Shown here in pieces: positions 2,514 through 57,449 of a DNA stretch of 64,000 bases. The number at the start of each line of letters is the position of its first letter. Position 1 is the stretch's first letter. The notes below the pieces were generated by a model. It worked only from the letters and a program-made list of their open reading frames with translations, did no database searches and was not told the origin of the DNA. The position numbers and the translations under genes are program-made. Source of the DNA: Arthrobacter sp. Soc17.1.1.1 (GTDB taxonomy: Bacteria; Actinomycetota; Actinomycetes; Actinomycetales; Micrococcaceae); the NCBI RefSeq assembly GCF_036867195.1, contig NZ_JBAJII010000001.1, positions 868,001 through 932,000 on the forward strand, in the 5' to 3' direction.

Positions 2514-3224
2514 TCAGGGCCGCCGGGCGGCCGAGGCCACGACGCCCTCGGCGATGACCCGCAGCTTCGCGTTGCGGCTGCTGGAGGCCCGCTGCAGGAT
2601 CGCGAGGGCGTCGGCCTGCGAGCAGGTGTTCTGGAACATGATGATGCCGACGGCGGTGTTGATGACCCGGCGTGAGGCCAGGGCCGTCTCGAGGTCCTTC
2701 TGCCGGTCGTCCAGGTATGCCGCCCGTACCGCGAACCGCAGGGAGGCGGACGCGGACCCGGCGAGTGCCTCGGCGGCCTCGACAGCCGCGCTGCCGAAGG
2801 CATGGGGCTGCGCCGCATAGACGTTCAACGCCGCCTGCCCCTCGTCCCCGAGGTCGATGGTGACCCCGAGGATCGACCGGACGTGCCCGGTGTCGAGCCG
2901 GCCGAGGTAGGTGGGCCAGCGCGGGTCACGTGCCGTATCGGAGCAGTACACCGTCATCCCCGTCGCGGCCGCTTCGAGGCACGGCCCCTCCTGGAAACGG
3001 TTCTGGAACTCGTCGGCTCTCCGTGCGATCCCGTCGCTCGCCGCCAGCGTGCCGGCTTTCCGCCGTCGCACCAGCGTGATCGCGCAGGAGACGTCGCCCG
3101 TCATCGACAGCCGGCGCGCGGCGATACCGGCGAACTCGTCGAGGAAGGCCTGGATATCGGCCGTTTCGGTCAGCAGCGCGAACAGTTCGTCGCCGACACT
3201 GCCCAGTTCCTGCTGCTCTTTCAT
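2514..3224 (-). CDS. GAF and ANTAR domain regulator (third of three)
   Basis: A 236-residue GAF-ANTAR protein. GAF at about 15-150 contains FQEGPCLEAAATGMTVY and VRSILGVTIDLGDEGQAALNVY; ANTAR at about 165-230 contains LASRRVINTAVGIIMFQNTC and LQRASSSRNAKLRVIAEG. A ribosome site AAGGA is 7 bases before ATG 3224. The FQEGPC/LSEGPC signature is shared with the first member, and the ASSSRN segment with the second, so the trio looks like diverged duplicates. Confidence 0.9.
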   Translation of the reverse strand: MKEQQELGSVGDELFALLTETADIQAFLDEFAGIAARRLSMTGDVSCAITLVRRRKAGTLAASDGIARRADEFQNRFQEGPCLEAAATGMTVYCSDTARDPRWPTYLGRLDTGHVRSILGVTIDLGDEGQAALNVYAAQPHAFGSAAVEAAEALAGSASASLRFAVRAAYLDDRQKDLETALASRRVINTAVGIIMFQNTCSQADALAILQRASSSRNAKLRVIAEGVVASAARRP

Positions 3225-3288
3225 CTCGTGTCCTTCGACCCGGCCGACATAGCGCTCCGCAGTCTACGCCGCGCGTGCCCGGGCCGGT

Positions 3289-4179
3289 TCAGTCTCCGAG
3301 GGTTGCGCGGTCCGCTGCGGCGTGGTCCACCTCCTCCTGCGCCCCGGCGACGGCGTCGTCCGCCTTCCGGGCCGCCCGGTCCAGATCGGCCGCCTCCGAC
3401 GCGATGTCGGTGTGCTCCCTGCGCAGCGCCTCCAGCCGCTCCTCGAGATCCTCGATCGACGCGGCCACCCCGTCGCGCCGCACCGCCAGGCGCTGCGCCC
3501 GTCGCCGCAGATCGGCAGCGGCATCCTCGGCTTCCGCGAGTGCGTCGCGTGCCGCTGCGAGACGTGCCTCGGCCTCCCTGCGCTCGCGGGCTCCCGGTTG
3601 CTTCGGGCTCCGTCCGTGCCCCGGGGCCGCATCGTCCTCGGCATCCCCGCCGTCGCCGCCCTGCCCCGGCGCGGTGAACGGACCGCCCACGGCGCCGTTG
3701 AGGTCCACCGGATCCCAGCCCGACGCCTCCAGCGTGCGGACGAGCCGTCCGGTCAGCACCGCCGCTGCTGCCGCCGGGTCCGCGAGGGCGGCACGCAGCG
3801 TCTGTTCGACGCCGGGCAGGGCGGCGGCCCCGATGTCGACGCCGGCCTCCGCGGCCGCCTCGAGCGACTGGCGGGCGACGGCGGCGAGCAGCCGCTGGCG
3901 CTGCTGGCCGAGCGCCTGGAGCTGCGCCCGGTCGAGGCCGGCCTGCGCCTCCTTCAGCGAGGCTCCGAGGTCCAGGACCTGCTCCACCTCGTCCCTGCGG
4001 CGGGTGACGAGCAGGTTGACGAGCCAGGCGGCCGAGGCGGGCTTGGGGAGTCTGCGCAGGGCAGCGGCGAGCTCCTTGTCGCCCGCCTGCGAGGCCTGCT
4101 TCGCGGCGGCGTTGCGCGCCTCCGTGAACCGGTCGAGCGGCAGCGCGTAGAGGGCCGAGGCCTGGTCCACGAGGTCCAT
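3289..4179 (-). CDS. Conserved coiled-coil protein of unknown function
   Basis: A 296-residue protein that I do not recognise as a named family. Residues 1-150 look like an all-alpha region (QASALYALPLDRFTEARN; LRRLPKPASAAWLVNLLVTR). Residues about 180-215 are an acidic/glycine linker. Residues about 215-290 are a charged heptad-type coiled coil (EARLAAARDALAEAEDAAAD, IEDLEERLEALRREHTDI). No signal peptide or membrane segment. Start ATG 4179 has GGAAGGA about 8 bases upstream; a much longer open frame runs upstream but overlaps the DUF429 gene. It ends 64 bases from the third ANTAR gene. Confidence 0.8.
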   Translation of the reverse strand: MDLVDQASALYALPLDRFTEARNAAAKQASQAGDKELAAALRRLPKPASAAWLVNLLVTRRRDEVEQVLDLGASLKEAQAGLDRAQLQALGQQRQRLLAAVARQSLEAAAEAGVDIGAAALPGVEQTLRAALADPAAAAAVLTGRLVRTLEASGWDPVDLNGAVGGPFTAPGQGGDGGDAEDDAAPGHGRSPKQPGARERREAEARLAAARDALAEAEDAAADLRRRAQRLAVRRDGVAASIEDLEERLEALRREHTDIASEAADLDRAARKADDAVAGAQEEVDHAAADRATLGD

Positions 4180-49931: not shown

Positions 49932-52262
<2,331 letters not shown>

Positions 52263-52284
52263 TTCCCCACCCGGTTCCTCACCG

Positions 52285-52322
52285 ATCAGCCGGCGTACCG
52301 CTCACGCGGTACGTCGGCTGAT
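52285..52322 (+). terminator. Terminator of icd
   Basis: A 17-bp stem (52285-52301 with 52306-52322) with a single G-T pair and a TCAC loop, followed by TACTTTAA. One of the strongest hairpins in the window. Confidence 0.85.
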
Positions 52323-52339
52323 TACTTTAAGAACAACCA

Positions 52340-52369
52340 TTTACATGCGTCACACGACGGGTCTATGGT
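52340..52369 (+). promoter_or_regulatory. Promoter of the secreted-protein pair
   Basis: A -35 box TTTACA (52340-52345) and a -10 box TATGGT (52364-52369) are 18 bases apart, in AT-richer DNA after the icd terminator, and about 33 bases upstream of ATG 52403. Confidence 0.5.
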
Positions 52370-52402: not shown

Positions 52403-53488
52403 ATGAAGATGCAGAAGCGTCGGTCTCCCGCTACCACCCTGCGCGTGTCGCTCCTGACCGGCCTCGGAGCCCTCGGCTGGCTGGCCCTCGGGGCCACCGG
52501 AGCCTCGGCCGCCGAGTCTCCCCGCGACGCCGGTCTCCTCGAATCGTTCGTCGGCATCGTCGATTCCGTGACCGCACCCGCCGTGTCCTCCCTCTCCACG
52601 CCGCTCTCCCCGGTGGCCCCCGCGGCGCCGGCATCCGCTGCCGCGCGGCCGGTCCTCGCAGATCTCCCCGTCGTCCCCGACCTCGTGGCCCGCGTGCCGC
52701 AGGTCGTCGCGCAGCCGGCGGGCACCGTTTTCGCCCCTGTGACCTCGACGGTCGACTCCCTCGTCGCCCAGGTGCCGATCGTGCACTCCCTGGTCCCCGC
52801 CGGGACGGTCACGGGTGTGACCTCCCCGGTGATCGGGGTCGTCGACGGAGCTGTCGGTCACGTCACCGCGCCGGTGCTCGAAGCAGTCGCGCCGGTCACG
52901 GGGGTCGTGACCCCGGTGGTCGACGCCGTCGTCCCGGCTCCGGGCGTAATTCCTCCCGTCGACGTCGTCCCCCTGCCCGCGGCCGTGCCTGGTGCTGCTC
53001 CCGCAGTCCCCACGGTCGATACCCTCCCTGGCATCCAGGAAGCATCTGCCGAGCCGGTCCGTGCCGACGTCGCCGCCTCCGACGGTGTCACCCCCGCTTC
53101 CGGCGGAGCGGTCCAGGAGGCGCATCGGAGCGGCTCTGCTGCTCCCGACCACAGCGTCGGAGCAGCCGGCCGGAACAGTTCCGTCCTGCCGGTCACCGCG
53201 GCCAGCGTCGCCGGGGACATCGCAGACTCCATTGCCCCCGTTCTCGCCCCCGTCGTCGTAGGTATCGCTCAGGCGACGACCGCCGTGCCGGACCTGCCGA
53301 CCGCGCCCATCGCCGTGTCTGCGGGCGCCCTGGCGTCCATGACCGCCGGCGGAACCTCGGCGCCGCTCGCGGCGCTCAGCGGCGCGGCCCTCCTCCTCGT
53401 CGTCCTGCTCTCCCGCCGTGCCGACCGCTCCGCGGTGGCCGGCCTTCCGACGTCCCCCAGCTTCGATCCCGGCTCCTCTCCGGACTAG
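52403..53488 (+). CDS. Secreted Val/Pro/Ala-rich protein with C-terminal membrane helix
   Basis: A 361-residue exported protein. A basic start and hydrophobic stretch end in the signal-peptidase site ASAAES near residue 36. The mature part is low-complexity, with irregular repeats of the kind PVxxVVxPV (TSPVIGVVDGAVGHVTAPVL, APVTGVVTPVVDAVVP), only one Asn pair and no Cys. A hydrophobic helix (LAALSGAALLLVVLL) followed by Arg-Arg near the C-terminus would hold it in the membrane; there is no sortase motif before it. No family recognised. It lies 84 bases upstream of the multi-chaplin gene and is probably co-transcribed with it. Confidence 0.8.
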   Translation: MKMQKRRSPATTLRVSLLTGLGALGWLALGATGASAAESPRDAGLLESFVGIVDSVTAPAVSSLSTPLSPVAPAAPASAAARPVLADLPVVPDLVARVPQVVAQPAGTVFAPVTSTVDSLVAQVPIVHSLVPAGTVTGVTSPVIGVVDGAVGHVTAPVLEAVAPVTGVVTPVVDAVVPAPGVIPPVDVVPLPAAVPGAAPAVPTVDTLPGIQEASAEPVRADVAASDGVTPASGGAVQEAHRSGSAAPDHSVGAAGRNSSVLPVTAASVAGDIADSIAPVLAPVVVGIAQATTAVPDLPTAPIAVSAGALASMTAGGTSAPLAALSGAALLLVVLLSRRADRSAVAGLPTSPSFDPGSSPD

Positions 53489-53572
53489 TGGTGGCCTCGC
53501 CGTGCTCCGCGCGGCTGACGGCTCACGACGCCTCGGGCGTCCCCACACCACTTCGATCCACAGGAGAACATC

Positions 53573-56209
53573 ATGCGTACATGCGTGCAGCGCGGGCTCT
53601 ACGGGGCCCTTCTAGCCGGGGGCGTCATCGTCCTCGGGGCAGGGTCGGCAGCAGCTGCGGACCTTTCCGCAACAACCGATACCGAGCCGGCTACGAGTCT
53701 CGGAACCGTCATCACCGCACCCCTGCAGTCCGGGACCACGAGCGGTTCGGTCATCCAGGAGACCGTCGTCTCGCTCGATGCTTCCCTCGACCTCGACCTC
53801 GGTATCGTCGGCAGTGACTCCACCGGTGGGCTACTCGACGGCGGGCTGCTCGGCGGGGGAGTCCTCGGCGGGAACGTGATCTCGCCCGAGATCGTGGTGC
53901 CGGTGAATTTGTCGGGCAACTCGGTGTCCGTGATCGGTGATTCGTCGTCGGCAGGCGCATCCGGGTCGACCGGATCGACCGGTGGCTCGGCTCCCGCTCC
54001 GGCTCCTGCTCCGGCCCCTGCTCCGGCTCCGGCCCCTGCCCCTGCTCCGGCTGACGGCGGGCTGCTCGGTGGGGGAGTCCTCGGTGGGAACGTGATCTCG
54101 CCCGAGATCGTGGTGCCGGTAAATTTGTCGGGCAACTCGGTGTCCGTGCTCGGTGATGCGTCGTCGGCAGGCGCATCCGGGTCGACCGGATCGGCCGGTG
54201 GCTCGGCCGCCGCTCCTGCTCCTGCTCCGTCTCCGGCTGACGGCGGGCTGCTCGGTGGCATCGTGGACGGGAACGTGATCTCGCCCGAGATTGTGGTGCC
54301 GGTGAATCTGTCCGGTAACTCGGTGTCGGTGCTGGGTGATTCGTCGACGGCAGGCGGATCCGGGTCGACCGGATCAACCGGTGGCTCGGCTCCCGCTCCC
54401 GCTCCGACCCCTGCTCCCGCTCCGACTCCGGCTCCGGCTGACGGCGGGTTGCTCGGTGGCATCGTGGACGGGAACGTGATCTCGCCCGAGATCGTGGTGC
54501 CGGTGAACCTGTCGGGCAACTCGGTGTCCGTGTTCGGTGATTCGTCGTCGGCAGGCGGATCCGGGTCGACCGGATCGACCGGTGGCTCGGCTCCCGCTCC
54601 CGCTCCGGCTCCTGCTCCGGCTGACGGCGGGTTGCTCGGTGGCATCGTGGACGGGAACGTGATCTCGCCCGAGATCGTGGTGCCGGTGAATCTGTCGGGC
54701 AACTCGGTGTCCGTGATCGGTGATTCGTCGACGGCAGGCGGATCCGGATCGACCGGATCGACCGGTGGCTCGGCTCCTGCTCCCGCTCCTGCTCCCGCTC
54801 CTGCTCCCGCTCCTGCTGACGGCGGGTTGCTCGGTGGGGGAGTCCTCGGTGGGAACGTAATCTCGCCTGTGGTCACGATCCCGGTGACCGTCGGCTGTAA
54901 CGATGTCACCCTGATCGGTGACAGTGCCTCTGATTGCGCGAGCGGTTCCGCCGGGACCACCGGTACGACGCCCGGCACGACGCCTGGCACTACTGATGGC
55001 GGCATCCTCGACGGAAATGTGATCTCGCCTGTGGTCACGGTCCCGGTGAACGTCGGCTGCAACGATGTCACCGTGATCGGCGATAGCGCCTCCGATTGCA
55101 CGAGCGGGGCCACCGGGTCCACCGGCACGATTGGCGCCACCCCTGGCACGCCTGGCACCACCCCTGGCACGACGCCTGGCGGCATCCTCGACGGAAATGT
55201 GATCTCGCCTGTGGTCACGGTCCCGGTGAACGTCGGCTGCAACGACGTGACCCTGATTGGTGACAGTGCCTCTGATTGCACGACCGGTTCCACTGGTTCC
55301 ACCGGCACGACTCCTGGCACCACCCCTGGCACGACGCCTGGCGGCATCCTCGACGGAAATGTGATCTCGCCTGTGGTCACGGTCCCGGTGAACGTCGGCT
55401 GCAACGACGTGACCCTGATCGGCGACAGTGTCTCTGATTGCACGACCGGTTCCACCGGCACCACGCCCGGCACCACGCCCGGCACGACGCCCGGCACTAC
55501 CCCTGGCACCACTCCTGGCGGCATCCTCGACGGGAACGTGATCGCACCTGTGGTCACGGTCCCGGTGAACGTCGGCTGCAACGGTGTGGCCCTGATCGGT
55601 GACAGTGTCTCTGATTGCACGACCGGTTCCACTGGTTCCACCGGCACGACTCCTGGCACCACCCCTGGCACGGCGCCCGGCACGACGCCTGGCGGCATCC
55701 TCGACGAAAATGTGATCTCGCCTGTGGTCACGATCCCGGTGAACGTCGGCTGCAACGGCGTCACCCTGATTGGCAACAGCGCCACCGACTGCGGCGCCGG
55801 CGCCGGTGTTCCGACGACCCCGACCACTCCGACGACCCCGACCATCCCGACCCCGACGACTCCGACCACTCCGACGACTCCGACGACCCCGACGACCCCG
55901 GCCACCCCTGACATCCCCGGATCGGGCGACAACGATGGCGGCACCGATGACGGCGGCTCGGATGACGCCGACGTAGCGGTAACGATTCGCGACACCGCAA
56001 CCGGTACCGCCCCGGGCACGATCTCCGTGGCGAGCAATTCGGTGAACGTGACCACGGCCGCCGGTGCAGCCGGCGCGGCACCGAGCACCCCGAAGGCCCT
56101 CGCCTCCACGGGCTTCGCCGAGCAGCAGATCCTGCTCGTCGGCTCCCTGCTGCTCCTCGCCGGCGCAGGCGGCCTGCTGGCCGCCCGACGCCCGAAGGCA
56201 GACGCATAG
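53573..56209 (+). CDS. Multi-chaplin surface protein with eleven chaplin-like domains and LAxTG sorting signal
   Basis: An 878-residue secreted protein. Signal peptide 1-29 (ending AGSAAAAD). Eleven chaplin-like units have their NVI/NVIxP core at residues 101, 173, 234, 301, 362, 428, 482, 542, 596, 655 and 713. Units 1-5 read VVPVNLSGNSVSV-IGDSS with no Cys and are joined by Ala-Pro linkers; units 6-11 read VPVNVGCNDVTLIGDSASDC with two Cys and are joined by Thr-Pro-Gly linkers. A Thr-Pro stalk, an acidic patch, the sortase signal LASTG (843-847), a hydrophobic helix and an Arg tail (ARRPKADA) end it. Chaplins of Streptomyces are amyloid-forming surfactants; long ones are wall-anchored by class E sortase at LAxTG. 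Eleven domains is far above the usual one or two. Ribosome site CAGGAG lies 7 bases before ATG 53573. Confidence 0.88.
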   Translation: MRTCVQRGLYGALLAGGVIVLGAGSAAAADLSATTDTEPATSLGTVITAPLQSGTTSGSVIQETVVSLDASLDLDLGIVGSDSTGGLLDGGLLGGGVLGGNVISPEIVVPVNLSGNSVSVIGDSSSAGASGSTGSTGGSAPAPAPAPAPAPAPAPAPAPADGGLLGGGVLGGNVISPEIVVPVNLSGNSVSVLGDASSAGASGSTGSAGGSAAAPAPAPSPADGGLLGGIVDGNVISPEIVVPVNLSGNSVSVLGDSSTAGGSGSTGSTGGSAPAPAPTPAPAPTPAPADGGLLGGIVDGNVISPEIVVPVNLSGNSVSVFGDSSSAGGSGSTGSTGGSAPAPAPAPAPADGGLLGGIVDGNVISPEIVVPVNLSGNSVSVIGDSSTAGGSGSTGSTGGSAPAPAPAPAPAPAPADGGLLGGGVLGGNVISPVVTIPVTVGCNDVTLIGDSASDCASGSAGTTGTTPGTTPGTTDGGILDGNVISPVVTVPVNVGCNDVTVIGDSASDCTSGATGSTGTIGATPGTPGTTPGTTPGGILDGNVISPVVTVPVNVGCNDVTLIGDSASDCTTGSTGSTGTTPGTTPGTTPGGILDGNVISPVVTVPVNVGCNDVTLIGDSVSDCTTGSTGTTPGTTPGTTPGTTPGTTPGGILDGNVIAPVVTVPVNVGCNGVALIGDSVSDCTTGSTGSTGTTPGTTPGTAPGTTPGGILDENVISPVVTIPVNVGCNGVTLIGNSATDCGAGAGVPTTPTTPTTPTIPTPTTPTTPTTPTTPTTPATPDIPGSGDNDGGTDDGGSDDADVAVTIRDTATGTAPGTISVASNSVNVTTAAGAAGAAPSTPKALASTGFAEQQILLVGSLLLLAGAGGLLAARRPKADA
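53850..55790 (+). repeat. Eleven tandem 160-215-base repeats in the multi-chaplin gene
   Basis: Each repeat carries an (A/G)AAYGTGATCTCGCCYG core, with starts at 53873, 54089, 54272, 54473, 54656, 54854, 55016, 55196, 55358, 55535 and 55709. Neighbours are nearly identical in DNA, and the linkers contain 6- and 9-base microrepeats (GCTCCG/GCTCCC and ACGCCTGGC/ACCCCTGGC types). Two blocks: five units, then six. Confidence 0.9.
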
Positions 56210-56232: not shown

Positions 56233-56272
56233 AGGACGGGCCCCCGCAGCGGAAGCTGCGGGGGCCCGTCCT
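56233..56272. terminator. Terminator after the multi-chaplin gene
   Basis: A perfect 18-bp stem (56233-56250 with 56255-56272) with a GGAA loop, between two converging genes; serves both strands. No T tract. Confidence 0.85.
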
Positions 56273-56296: not shown

Positions 56297-57376
56297 TCAG
56301 GCGGCGTCGTTCTCGTACCGCAGACCGATCTGCGCCCGCACGCCGTCGAGCAGGCGCATGGTCCTCACGGTGTCGCCGACCGGCATCGTCGGGCTCTCGG
56401 TGAGGCCTTCCTGGATGCAGCGCGTCACCTCGCGGAGCTCGTAGGTGTACCCCGCGCCCACCTGCTCGAACTCCTCCACCCGCGCCTCGCCCGGACCGGC
56501 CTGGATGGTCAGTTCCTTCGGGTTGTGGAGGTGCCCGCCGCCGGTCTTCAGCCAGCCCTTCGATCCGCAGACCGTCGCCTGTCCCGGGCACGAGGCGATG
56601 AACGACGACGACAGCTGGGCGTAGGCCCCGCTCGCGTAGCCGAGGGTCACGGCTGCCTGCAGGTCGACGCCGTCGTCGTTCAGGGTGCCGACCGCGGACA
56701 CCGAGTCGGGGAAGCCGAGTGACCCCAGTGCCCACGTGAGCGGGTAGACCGTCAGGTCCATCAGGGCTCCGCCGCCAGCCTTCGGGTCCCACAGGCGGCT
56801 GCTCGGATCATCGGGTGCGGCGAAGCCGAGATCCGCCTGCACCCAGCGGATGTCGCCGAGCTCCCCGGAGTGGATGATCTCCCACGCGCGGTTGACGCTG
56901 GGGAGGAACCGCGTCCAGACGGCCTCCATGAGGAACAGTCCGCGGTCGGCCGCGATCGCAGCAAGCTCCTCGGCCTCGGTGGCGTTGATGGTGAACGGCT
57001 TCTCGCACAGGACGTGCTTCCCGCCCGTCAGGGCCGCCCTGGCGACCTCGTAGTGCTGGCCGTGCGGGGTGGTGATGTAGACGACGTCGACCTCGGGGTC
57101 GTCCACGAGGCGCTGGTAGCCCGCTGTGCCGCCCTCGTTCCCGTAACTCGTGGCGAAGCCGAACCGCTCGGCGAACGCGGCTGCGCTGTCCGCGCTGCGC
57201 GAGCTCACCGCGTGGAGCACCGCGTCCTCGAGCAGGGCGATGTCCTGGGTGACCTTGGCGGCGATGCCGCCCGTGGCGATCACACCCCACTTCAGGGGGC
57301 GGCCGGTGGCGACGACGGGACTGGGAGCCCCCGCTTCCGCGCAGGGGGGAACGATCATGCGGTTCTGTGGAGTCAT
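56297..57376 (-). CDS. Gfo/Idh/MocA family oxidoreductase
   Basis: A 359-residue NAD(P)-dependent sugar dehydrogenase-type protein. Rossmann start LKWGVIATGGIAAKVTQDIA, then VDVVYITTPHGQHYEVA and the catalytic-lysine motif CEKPF (HVLCEKPFTIN); substrate domain with MEAVWTRFLPSV and GGGALMDLTVYPLTWAL, as in dihydrodiol/1,5-anhydrofructose-type members. ATG 57376 has AAGGAT about 8 bases upstream; start codons further upstream lack one. It lies downstream of the sugar importer but beyond its terminator. Confidence 0.9.
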   Translation of the reverse strand: MTPQNRMIVPPCAEAGAPSPVVATGRPLKWGVIATGGIAAKVTQDIALLEDAVLHAVSSRSADSAAAFAERFGFATSYGNEGGTAGYQRLVDDPEVDVVYITTPHGQHYEVARAALTGGKHVLCEKPFTINATEAEELAAIAADRGLFLMEAVWTRFLPSVNRAWEIIHSGELGDIRWVQADLGFAAPDDPSSRLWDPKAGGGALMDLTVYPLTWALGSLGFPDSVSAVGTLNDDGVDLQAAVTLGYASGAYAQLSSSFIASCPGQATVCGSKGWLKTGGGHLHNPKELTIQAGPGEARVEEFEQVGAGYTYELREVTRCIQEGLTESPTMPVGDTVRTMRLLDGVRAQIGLRYENDAA

Positions 57377-57449
57377 GGACCCATCCTTGCCGGACGCGGG
57401 GCCTGCGTCCAGCACACCACCCGGTCCCGCCCGCTCATCCGCAGACGAC

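Follow-up and report, generated by a model that had tools for sequence, protein, structure and literature searches.

A putatively wall-anchored array of chaplin-related units and an unnamed secreted partner as a candidate two-gene surface module in Arthrobacter

Streptomyces hyphae grow up into the air thanks to a coat of chaplins. What, then, might chaplin-like repeats be doing, eleven to a protein, in a member of the genus Arthrobacter? The question is raised by a stretch of 64,000 nucleotides of Arthrobacter sp. Soc17.1.1.1 (contig NZ_JBAJII010000001.1, positions 868,001 to 932,000; hereafter the window), part of a genome assembly of 4.2 Mb. A first-pass annotation of the window had proposed that one giant protein, here called the poly-chaplin, builds a hydrophobic or amyloid-like cell coat in place of many short chaplins. 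Our analysis partly supports that interpretation. Such arrays are already in databases; what is new is an unnamed secreted partner gene that accompanies them, and which an account based on one giant protein misses. We judge it somewhat probable that the genes at 52403-53488 and 53573-56209 form a two-gene surface-coat module. Its parts are as follows (ORF, open reading frame; HMM, hidden Markov model).

52403..53488, + strand: partner gene, encoding a 361-amino-acid secreted Val/Pro/Ala-rich protein of a family without a name (ORF; conserved upstream of poly-chaplins)
52673..52930, + strand: partner residues 91-176, predicted helices with the conserved core VDxxVxxVPVVxxVVPxGTVxxVTxPV (structure model, alignment)
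53465..53485, + strand: partner C-terminal tail DPGSSPD (tail counts at loci and in database homologues)
53562..53566, + strand: AGGAG, likely ribosome-binding site of the poly-chaplin gene (sequence)
53573..56209, + strand: poly-chaplin gene, 878 amino acids (ORF, PF03777, unit count, canonical HMM)
53573..53659, + strand: signal peptide, about residues 1-29, with a putative cleavage site (sequence; helix 2-32 in the model)
53855..53965, + strand: unit 1, no Cys (units 1-5: direct count and unit profile)
54071..54181, + strand: unit 2, no Cys
54254..54364, + strand: unit 3, no Cys
54455..54565, + strand: unit 4, no Cys
54638..54748, + strand: unit 5, no Cys
54836..54946, + strand: unit 6, Cys pair (units 6-11: direct count, unit profile and Cys analysis)
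54998..55108, + strand: unit 7, Cys pair
55178..55288, + strand: unit 8, Cys pair
55340..55450, + strand: unit 9, Cys pair
55517..55627, + strand: unit 10, Cys pair
55691..55801, + strand: unit 11, Cys pair
55802..55920, + strand: Pro/Thr (PTT) stretch, perhaps wall-spanning (DNA repeat family)
56099..56113, + strand: LASTG sorting motif, residues 843-847 (sequence)
56114..56206, + strand: hydrophobic helix and Arg/Lys tail (helix 848-877 in the model; sequence)

The poly-chaplin ORF opens with an ATG whose position agrees with the MRTxVQRG N-terminus of its orthologues and which follows the end of AGGAG by 6 nucleotides. From N- to C-terminus, the protein consists of a signal peptide, eleven units, a Pro/Thr stretch, LASTG, a helix and a basic tail. 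The repeat number and the sorting signal given by the first-pass annotation both stand: the direct count and a unit-profile search of the genome (11 matches, all in this ORF) each give eleven, and the C-terminus reads KALASTG-helix-ARR. The proposed unit consensus fits overall, with exceptions in units 1-5, which read NVISPEIVVPVNLSGNSVSV, in unit 4 (VFGDS), in unit 10 (NVIAP) and in unit 11, which starts EN and has IGNS. Units lie 54-72 residues apart and fall into two groups. Over 31 residues, mean pairwise identity is 88% within units 1-5, 85% within units 6-11 and 56% between the groups, and the repeats in the DNA of the gene split in the same way. The mature chain is strongly acidic (58 Asp/Glu versus 2 Lys/Arg). 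Its structure model, with a mean predicted local distance difference test (pLDDT) score of only 46.8 and too weak for a fold search, resembles beads on a string, with short strands within units and linkers below 50.

Matches to the unit model occurred in 15/38 congeneric genomes (3 to 16 each), in 21/197 genomes of a family sample and in 35/297 of an order sample, six of the latter with a single match; the array is therefore not peculiar to this strain. These counts, along with prior annotation of PF03777 in 25 of 27 database homologues, contradict the idea of a giant poly-chaplin as a one-off. A 2013 paper mentioned a chaplin-like protein of A. chlorophenolicus and suggested that aerial growth may have come after a role in attachment (PMC4255298; this and the other cited papers are drawn on for the parts of their text that were available). 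The same source describes one Arthrobacter species as a nonsporulating rod-coccus, which agrees with the earlier view of the host as non-filamentous. Apart from that 2013 sentence, no title or abstract on poly-chaplins of this order turned up in the literature searched, subscription papers lying largely outside the search. One record, titled Vibrio cholerae strain 35D contig00035 (L015), has a contig end with an Arthrobacter-type isocitrate dehydrogenase gene, the partner and the start of a poly-chaplin; the contig has probably been mislabelled or stems from contamination.

Could the array instead be a homotypic adhesin or aggregation factor, whose beta-units bind units on other cells or on a surface and form no continuous hydrophobic coat? 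The number of units varies widely, as in length-tuned adhesins, not only among genomes but also among close orthologues (6 to 12). The chain is acidic, its linkers are disordered in the model, and some chaplins aid attachment, a role that is possibly older than aerial growth (PMC4255298). Yet neither Pfam nor the model reveals a separate binding domain at the distal end, and the units are homologous to domains that form coats. We consider an adhesin of this type unlikely, if far from negligible.

The evidence that a second gene belongs to the system comes from co-occurrence and position. The stop codon of the partner gene lies 84 nucleotides upstream of the poly-chaplin gene on the same strand. 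Among the congeneric genomes, the partner is present in exactly the same 15/38 as the units, where its coordinates place it next to them on one strand, and at 7/7 named loci it matches upstream of the array with best segments of 69 to 405 columns. In the order sample, searches gave a partner match, in some cases weak, for 30 of the 35 unit-positive genomes (Fisher p 2e-22; neither this nor the other co-occurrence figures are corrected for kinship); inspection found the partner in four of the other five, and the fifth is cut by a contig end. We then considered 28 array loci with an intact upstream flank, drawn from four families of the order. Regions were first taken for 26 cases (25 unit-positive genomes and one canonical-like match), followed by four unit-positive genomes that were negative in the partner search and two of another family. 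L096 (contig end) and L111 (no array) were dropped. At 28/28 loci, a secreted Val/Pro/Ala-rich ORF precedes the array with a gap of 47-141 nucleotides. L088 and L104 gave no clean longest-ORF call for array or partner and were counted after inspection of their frames. At L087, L099, L102 and L103, where the Arthrobacter-trained partner profile scores below zero (7.6 for reversed L102), the calls rest on position, layout and tail. Such regularities of co-occurrence and position strongly support a link between the two genes.

The partner also carries a distinctive ending. At the 28 loci, its C-terminus is PD in 24, PG in two and PA in two, and 31 of 32 database homologues end in PD, the other in PG. 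By comparison, none of 279 other same-strand ORFs of at least 90 amino acids in the first 26 regions ends in PD; the initial control count was 2/281, but these two ORFs turned out to be partners, of L088 and L104, and were moved out. The near-invariant tail, SPD or TPD, lies upstream of poly-chaplins in four families. Its strings do not occur in the literature searched, and at 20 Streptomyces-type chaplin loci (about 3.2 kb each), 0/424 open frames end in PD. None of 27 partner family members matches Pfam, and the protein is named "hypothetical protein" wherever the source gives a name. An NCBIfam assignment was rejected, as it consisted of only three single-member matches among the 27. In the structure model (mean pLDDT 58.9), helices occupy residues 92-176, with blocks of pLDDT 82-91 at 101-160 and lower values at both ends. 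Foldseek found no match to this model in the PDB, and a search of solved structures returned no credible relative. Hydrophobic periodicity in the core peaks at 90-110 degrees in 21/23 sequences; for 11/23 partners, no more than 5/500 shuffles reach the peak, whereas 47/500 do so for the partner in the window. By eye, a hydrophobic helix precedes the tail in partners of the Arthrobacter group and is absent from most others.

It is improbable, in our view, that the upstream gene is a conserved neighbor with a separate job and that the poly-chaplin works alone. Identical presence and absence across 38 genomes, together with the recurrence of adjacency and tail in four families, argue against this, despite the existence of partner-only genomes, the conservation within the genus of the neighborhood from isocitrate dehydrogenase onward, and the lack of a Pfam match, credible solved relative or fold match for the partner.

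How far are the units chaplin domains? Against PF03777, the poly-chaplin protein scores 77.4 bits (curated cut-off 21, E 7.5e-22), with nine stretches passing alone, and the chaplin likeness noted earlier stands. Of two single units tried, a Cys-less one scores 21.2 bits and a Cys-type one 16.4. A PF03777 search of the whole genome found no match, not even the poly-chaplin gene itself: with single units at only some 16-21 bits, it is insensitive here, and we set it aside in favor of the unit profile and a canonical profile. The latter was built because the PF03777 model may already contain proteins of the poly-chaplin type, and it comprises 32 chaplin domains, chosen by sequence pattern, from 19 of 20 loci in genomes of another family. 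This canonical HMM matches 11/11 units, aligned at model positions 14/15-41, for a total of 97.2 bits. The reversed protein gave no match, and 63/200 shuffles gave some match, the best at 5.6 bits. Individually, Cys-less units score 18.6-21.5 bits and Cys-type units 7.5-13.8, and the Cys-type units are therefore the more derived by that measure, despite having cysteines. Furthermore, a profile-profile comparison by hhalign reached 95.9% probability over 28 columns. No credible relative emerged among solved structures, whether the units or canonical chaplins served as the query.

The unit corresponds to the first two-thirds of a chaplin domain. It keeps SGN...PVNxCGN...VIG, or chaplin positions of about 16-42 in our own alignment, and has lost LLNPAFGN-C with the third GN motif. 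Chaplin domains are defined as hydrophobic, about 40 residues long, with three GN motifs 12-13 residues apart (PMC13251363, PMC3079736); the greatest hydrophobicity lies at positions 15-43, and TANGO places the strongest aggregation tendency at 36-46 (PMC3079736). The poly-chaplin thus shares the Pfam and anchor features of chaplins and lacks three defining ones: the units cover only positions 14/15-41 of the three-GN domain, the conserved Cys pair is missing from 5/11 units and altered in spacing in the other six, and in place of two domains with co-occurring short chaplins, as is typical of long chaplins, there are eleven units and no other chaplins found. The wording "eleven chaplin-like domains" is right in that all eleven units are chaplin-related, but it overstates their completeness. 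It is very improbable that short Val/Pro/Asn-rich strands of an unrelated repeat stalk merely converged on a chaplin-like pattern, since the shortness of the alignment (27-28 residues), the low canonical scores of the six Cys-type units and the absence of the third GN motif and canonical Cys spacing are outweighed by alignment of every unit at the same model positions with a total far above that of any shuffle, by the profile-profile probability, by an anchor signal and sortase class shared with chaplins, and by a chaplin-type wall protein in another order that has a weak partner-like gene upstream (L153, see below).

The two groups of units differ in their cysteines. Units 1-5 are Cys-free, and each of the six wall-near units 6-11 has one Cys pair spaced by 13 residues, versus 18 in canonical chaplins, with the first Cys shifted by one residue. 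The order of Cys-less followed by Cys-type units recurs in 6/6 complete close orthologues, the poly-chaplin of the window included (5+6 in the window, 4+8 in L009, 2+5 in L010 and L011, 2+4 in L012 and 3+6 in L110), and all 34 pairs are spaced by 13. The pairs of units 6-11 may form disulphides. Among chaplins, the pair is absent from ChpE and from the second domain of ChpB. Chaplin fibrils form in vitro without need for cysteines (PMC3079736).

Like long chaplins, the poly-chaplin has a secretion signal and an LAxTG sorting signal followed by a helix and a basic tail, and its genome has a matching enzyme. Five sortase genes were found: one of class E, one of class C and three that are class F-like. 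The single class E gene (L001) scores 230 bits against NF033747 (cut-off 160), which bears out the earlier expectation that such a sortase would be present. In S. coelicolor, SrtE1 and SrtE2 cleave LAXTG peptides, the class E signal, and attach ChpC (PMC5148588). The anchor of the 27 database homologues is LAx[TS]G in 23, LPQTG in one and not recognized in three; LAxTG is found in 21/24 loci with a called array ORF. At L087, L092 and L098, the longest array frame has no sorting signal, which may reflect a frame break in the repeat or an assembly error. Of the class F-like sortases, one lies above its cut-off (169.6 versus 166) and two below (164.4 and 125); each of their genes (L003, L004 and L005) adjoins a gene for a secreted protein with a C-terminal hydrophobic stretch. 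The genome yielded no other chaplins, short ones included, by the unit model (exactly the 11 matches above) or by the canonical model at E<=1 (6 matches, all poly-chaplin units). As a control, PF03777 detects chaplins in 96/394 genomes of the class, in frames down to 80 amino acids, this genome not being among them. Protein matches L007 and L008 from this genome were rejected; they have no unit match and were taken as low-complexity chance.

From these elements we can sketch how a two-gene coat might work. The product of the second gene would be a secreted chain in which disordered Pro/Ala and Thr/Pro/Gly linkers connect eleven shortened chaplin beta-units; the class E sortase would presumably fix this chain to peptidoglycan at LASTG. 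The six wall-near units may be stiffened by one disulphide each, leaving the five outer, Cys-free units to pack sideways with those of neighboring molecules; the resulting layer would be adhesive and hydrophobic, and perhaps amyloid-like. From the first gene would come a secreted companion, helical in part and ending in a nearly fixed Pro-Asp tail, that may assist or join the assembly much as rodlins do for chaplins. While the units, their homology, the anchor signal, the sortase gene, the gene pairing, the Cys order and the tail can be read from sequence, we infer the anchoring, wall location, disulphides, assembly, hydrophobicity, amyloid formation and companion role; by analogy, a coat or adhesive role would follow from chaplin biology (PMC3079736, PMC5618241).

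Several observations sit uneasily with this proposal. The best PF03777 match spans only Pfam positions 18-47 of 57, and the lost LLNPAFGN-C part includes the end of the predicted chaplin aggregation region. In a hot-spot count, aggregation hot spots number 22 in the mature poly-chaplin versus a mean of 31 in 200 shuffles, or 2.7 per 100 residues versus 3.1 in canonical domains. The acidity of the mature chain may keep the linkers soluble. Mature Cys residues are absent from all 27 database homologues and number 4, 0, 0 and 3 in the divergent congeneric arrays L106, L107, L108 and L109; the bipartite order is therefore a feature of the close Arthrobacter group. In addition, 21 order genomes have a partner match without a unit match. 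Among 18 such partner-only genomes (19 regions, leaving aside G704, G842 and the 600-base contig-end piece L177), a divergent array relative carrying LAxTG or LPxTG lies downstream in eight (L160, L164, L167, L168, L169, L172, L174 and L175), and none was detected in ten; several weak partner matches look like low-complexity chance. Finally, the partner profile is of limited specificity, as the array ORF L090 scored 20.6 bits, level with some true partners.

Other features flank the two genes. A hairpin seen by eye at 52255-52335 lies between the isocitrate dehydrogenase gene and the two-gene unit downstream.

52340..52369, + strand: TTTACA-18-TATGGT, a promoter-like site preceding the partner and poly-chaplin genes (consensus scan, 1 found versus 0.2 expected; a match that does not demonstrate function)
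56233..56272, strand unassigned: terminator-like 18-bp stem separating the poly-chaplin gene from its convergent neighbor, 56297-57415 (minus-strand call)

Among known systems, the long chaplins ChpA-C of S. coelicolor (PF03777, class E sortase substrates) share a signal peptide, beta units with GN turns, LAxTG and the class E sortase. The poly-chaplin differs in having eleven truncated units rather than two full domains, no third GN, a Cys spacing of 13 rather than 18 in wall-near units only, a non-filamentous host, no short chaplins found in its genome, and a partner gene. Database poly-PF03777 proteins, for instance those of Mycetocola, Labedella and Schumannella, variously named "hypothetical", "chaplin family", "DUF320" or "beta strand repeat-containing", are arrays of the same kind, 23/27 with LAx[TS]G, and inspected order genomes with such arrays have the partner upstream; without mature Cys, however, those 27 do not share the bipartite order, seen only in the close Arthrobacter group. 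The Streptomyces rodlins RdlA and RdlB are secreted proteins that accompany chaplins and shape their layer, a role that the partner may share; RdlB is an amyloid former (PMC5314377), whereas the partner is predicted to be helical in its core and has a nearly fixed tail. CwpA and CwpB of Actinoplanes missouriensis are SrtE-dependent hydrophobic wall proteins outside Streptomyces, but their authors conclude that they have no chaplin domains (PMC13251363), in contrast to the chaplin-related units described here.

The association may extend further. In a single case from another order (L153, coordinates on the reverse strand of the locus), a weak partner-like ORF at 1390-2502 ends in TPD (10.1 bits) and is followed at 2669-3301 by a 210-amino-acid protein with a canonical-chaplin match (20.9 bits) and LAETG. 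In another family, L182 and L183 have partner-like proteins ending in DVSPG, L183 with a weak array relative downstream (17.4 bits). To judge from L153, the partner may also serve wall-anchored chaplins in one or more other orders. It could even date from early in the history of chaplin coats and have escaped notice owing to its loss or replacement in Streptomyces. Tentatively, we raise the possibility, which we do not hold to be probable, that an obligate secreted helical partner and a wall-anchored poly-chaplin make up an undescribed surface-assembly system of non-filamentous actinobacteria. In it, the Pro-Asp tail (Pro-Gly or Pro-Ala in some families) would serve as a novel recognition signal at the C-terminus, and its reader would be the poly-chaplin or a factor for processing or sorting. 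The nearly fixed tail offers a concrete, testable candidate for such a signal. More generally, a two-gene system in single cells would allow chaplin-type assembly to be tested without eight redundant genes, and the presence of truncated, multiplied chaplin units on rod-coccus bacteria, with the partner gene beside every inspected array that has an intact flank, suggests an older and more general surface role for the domain.

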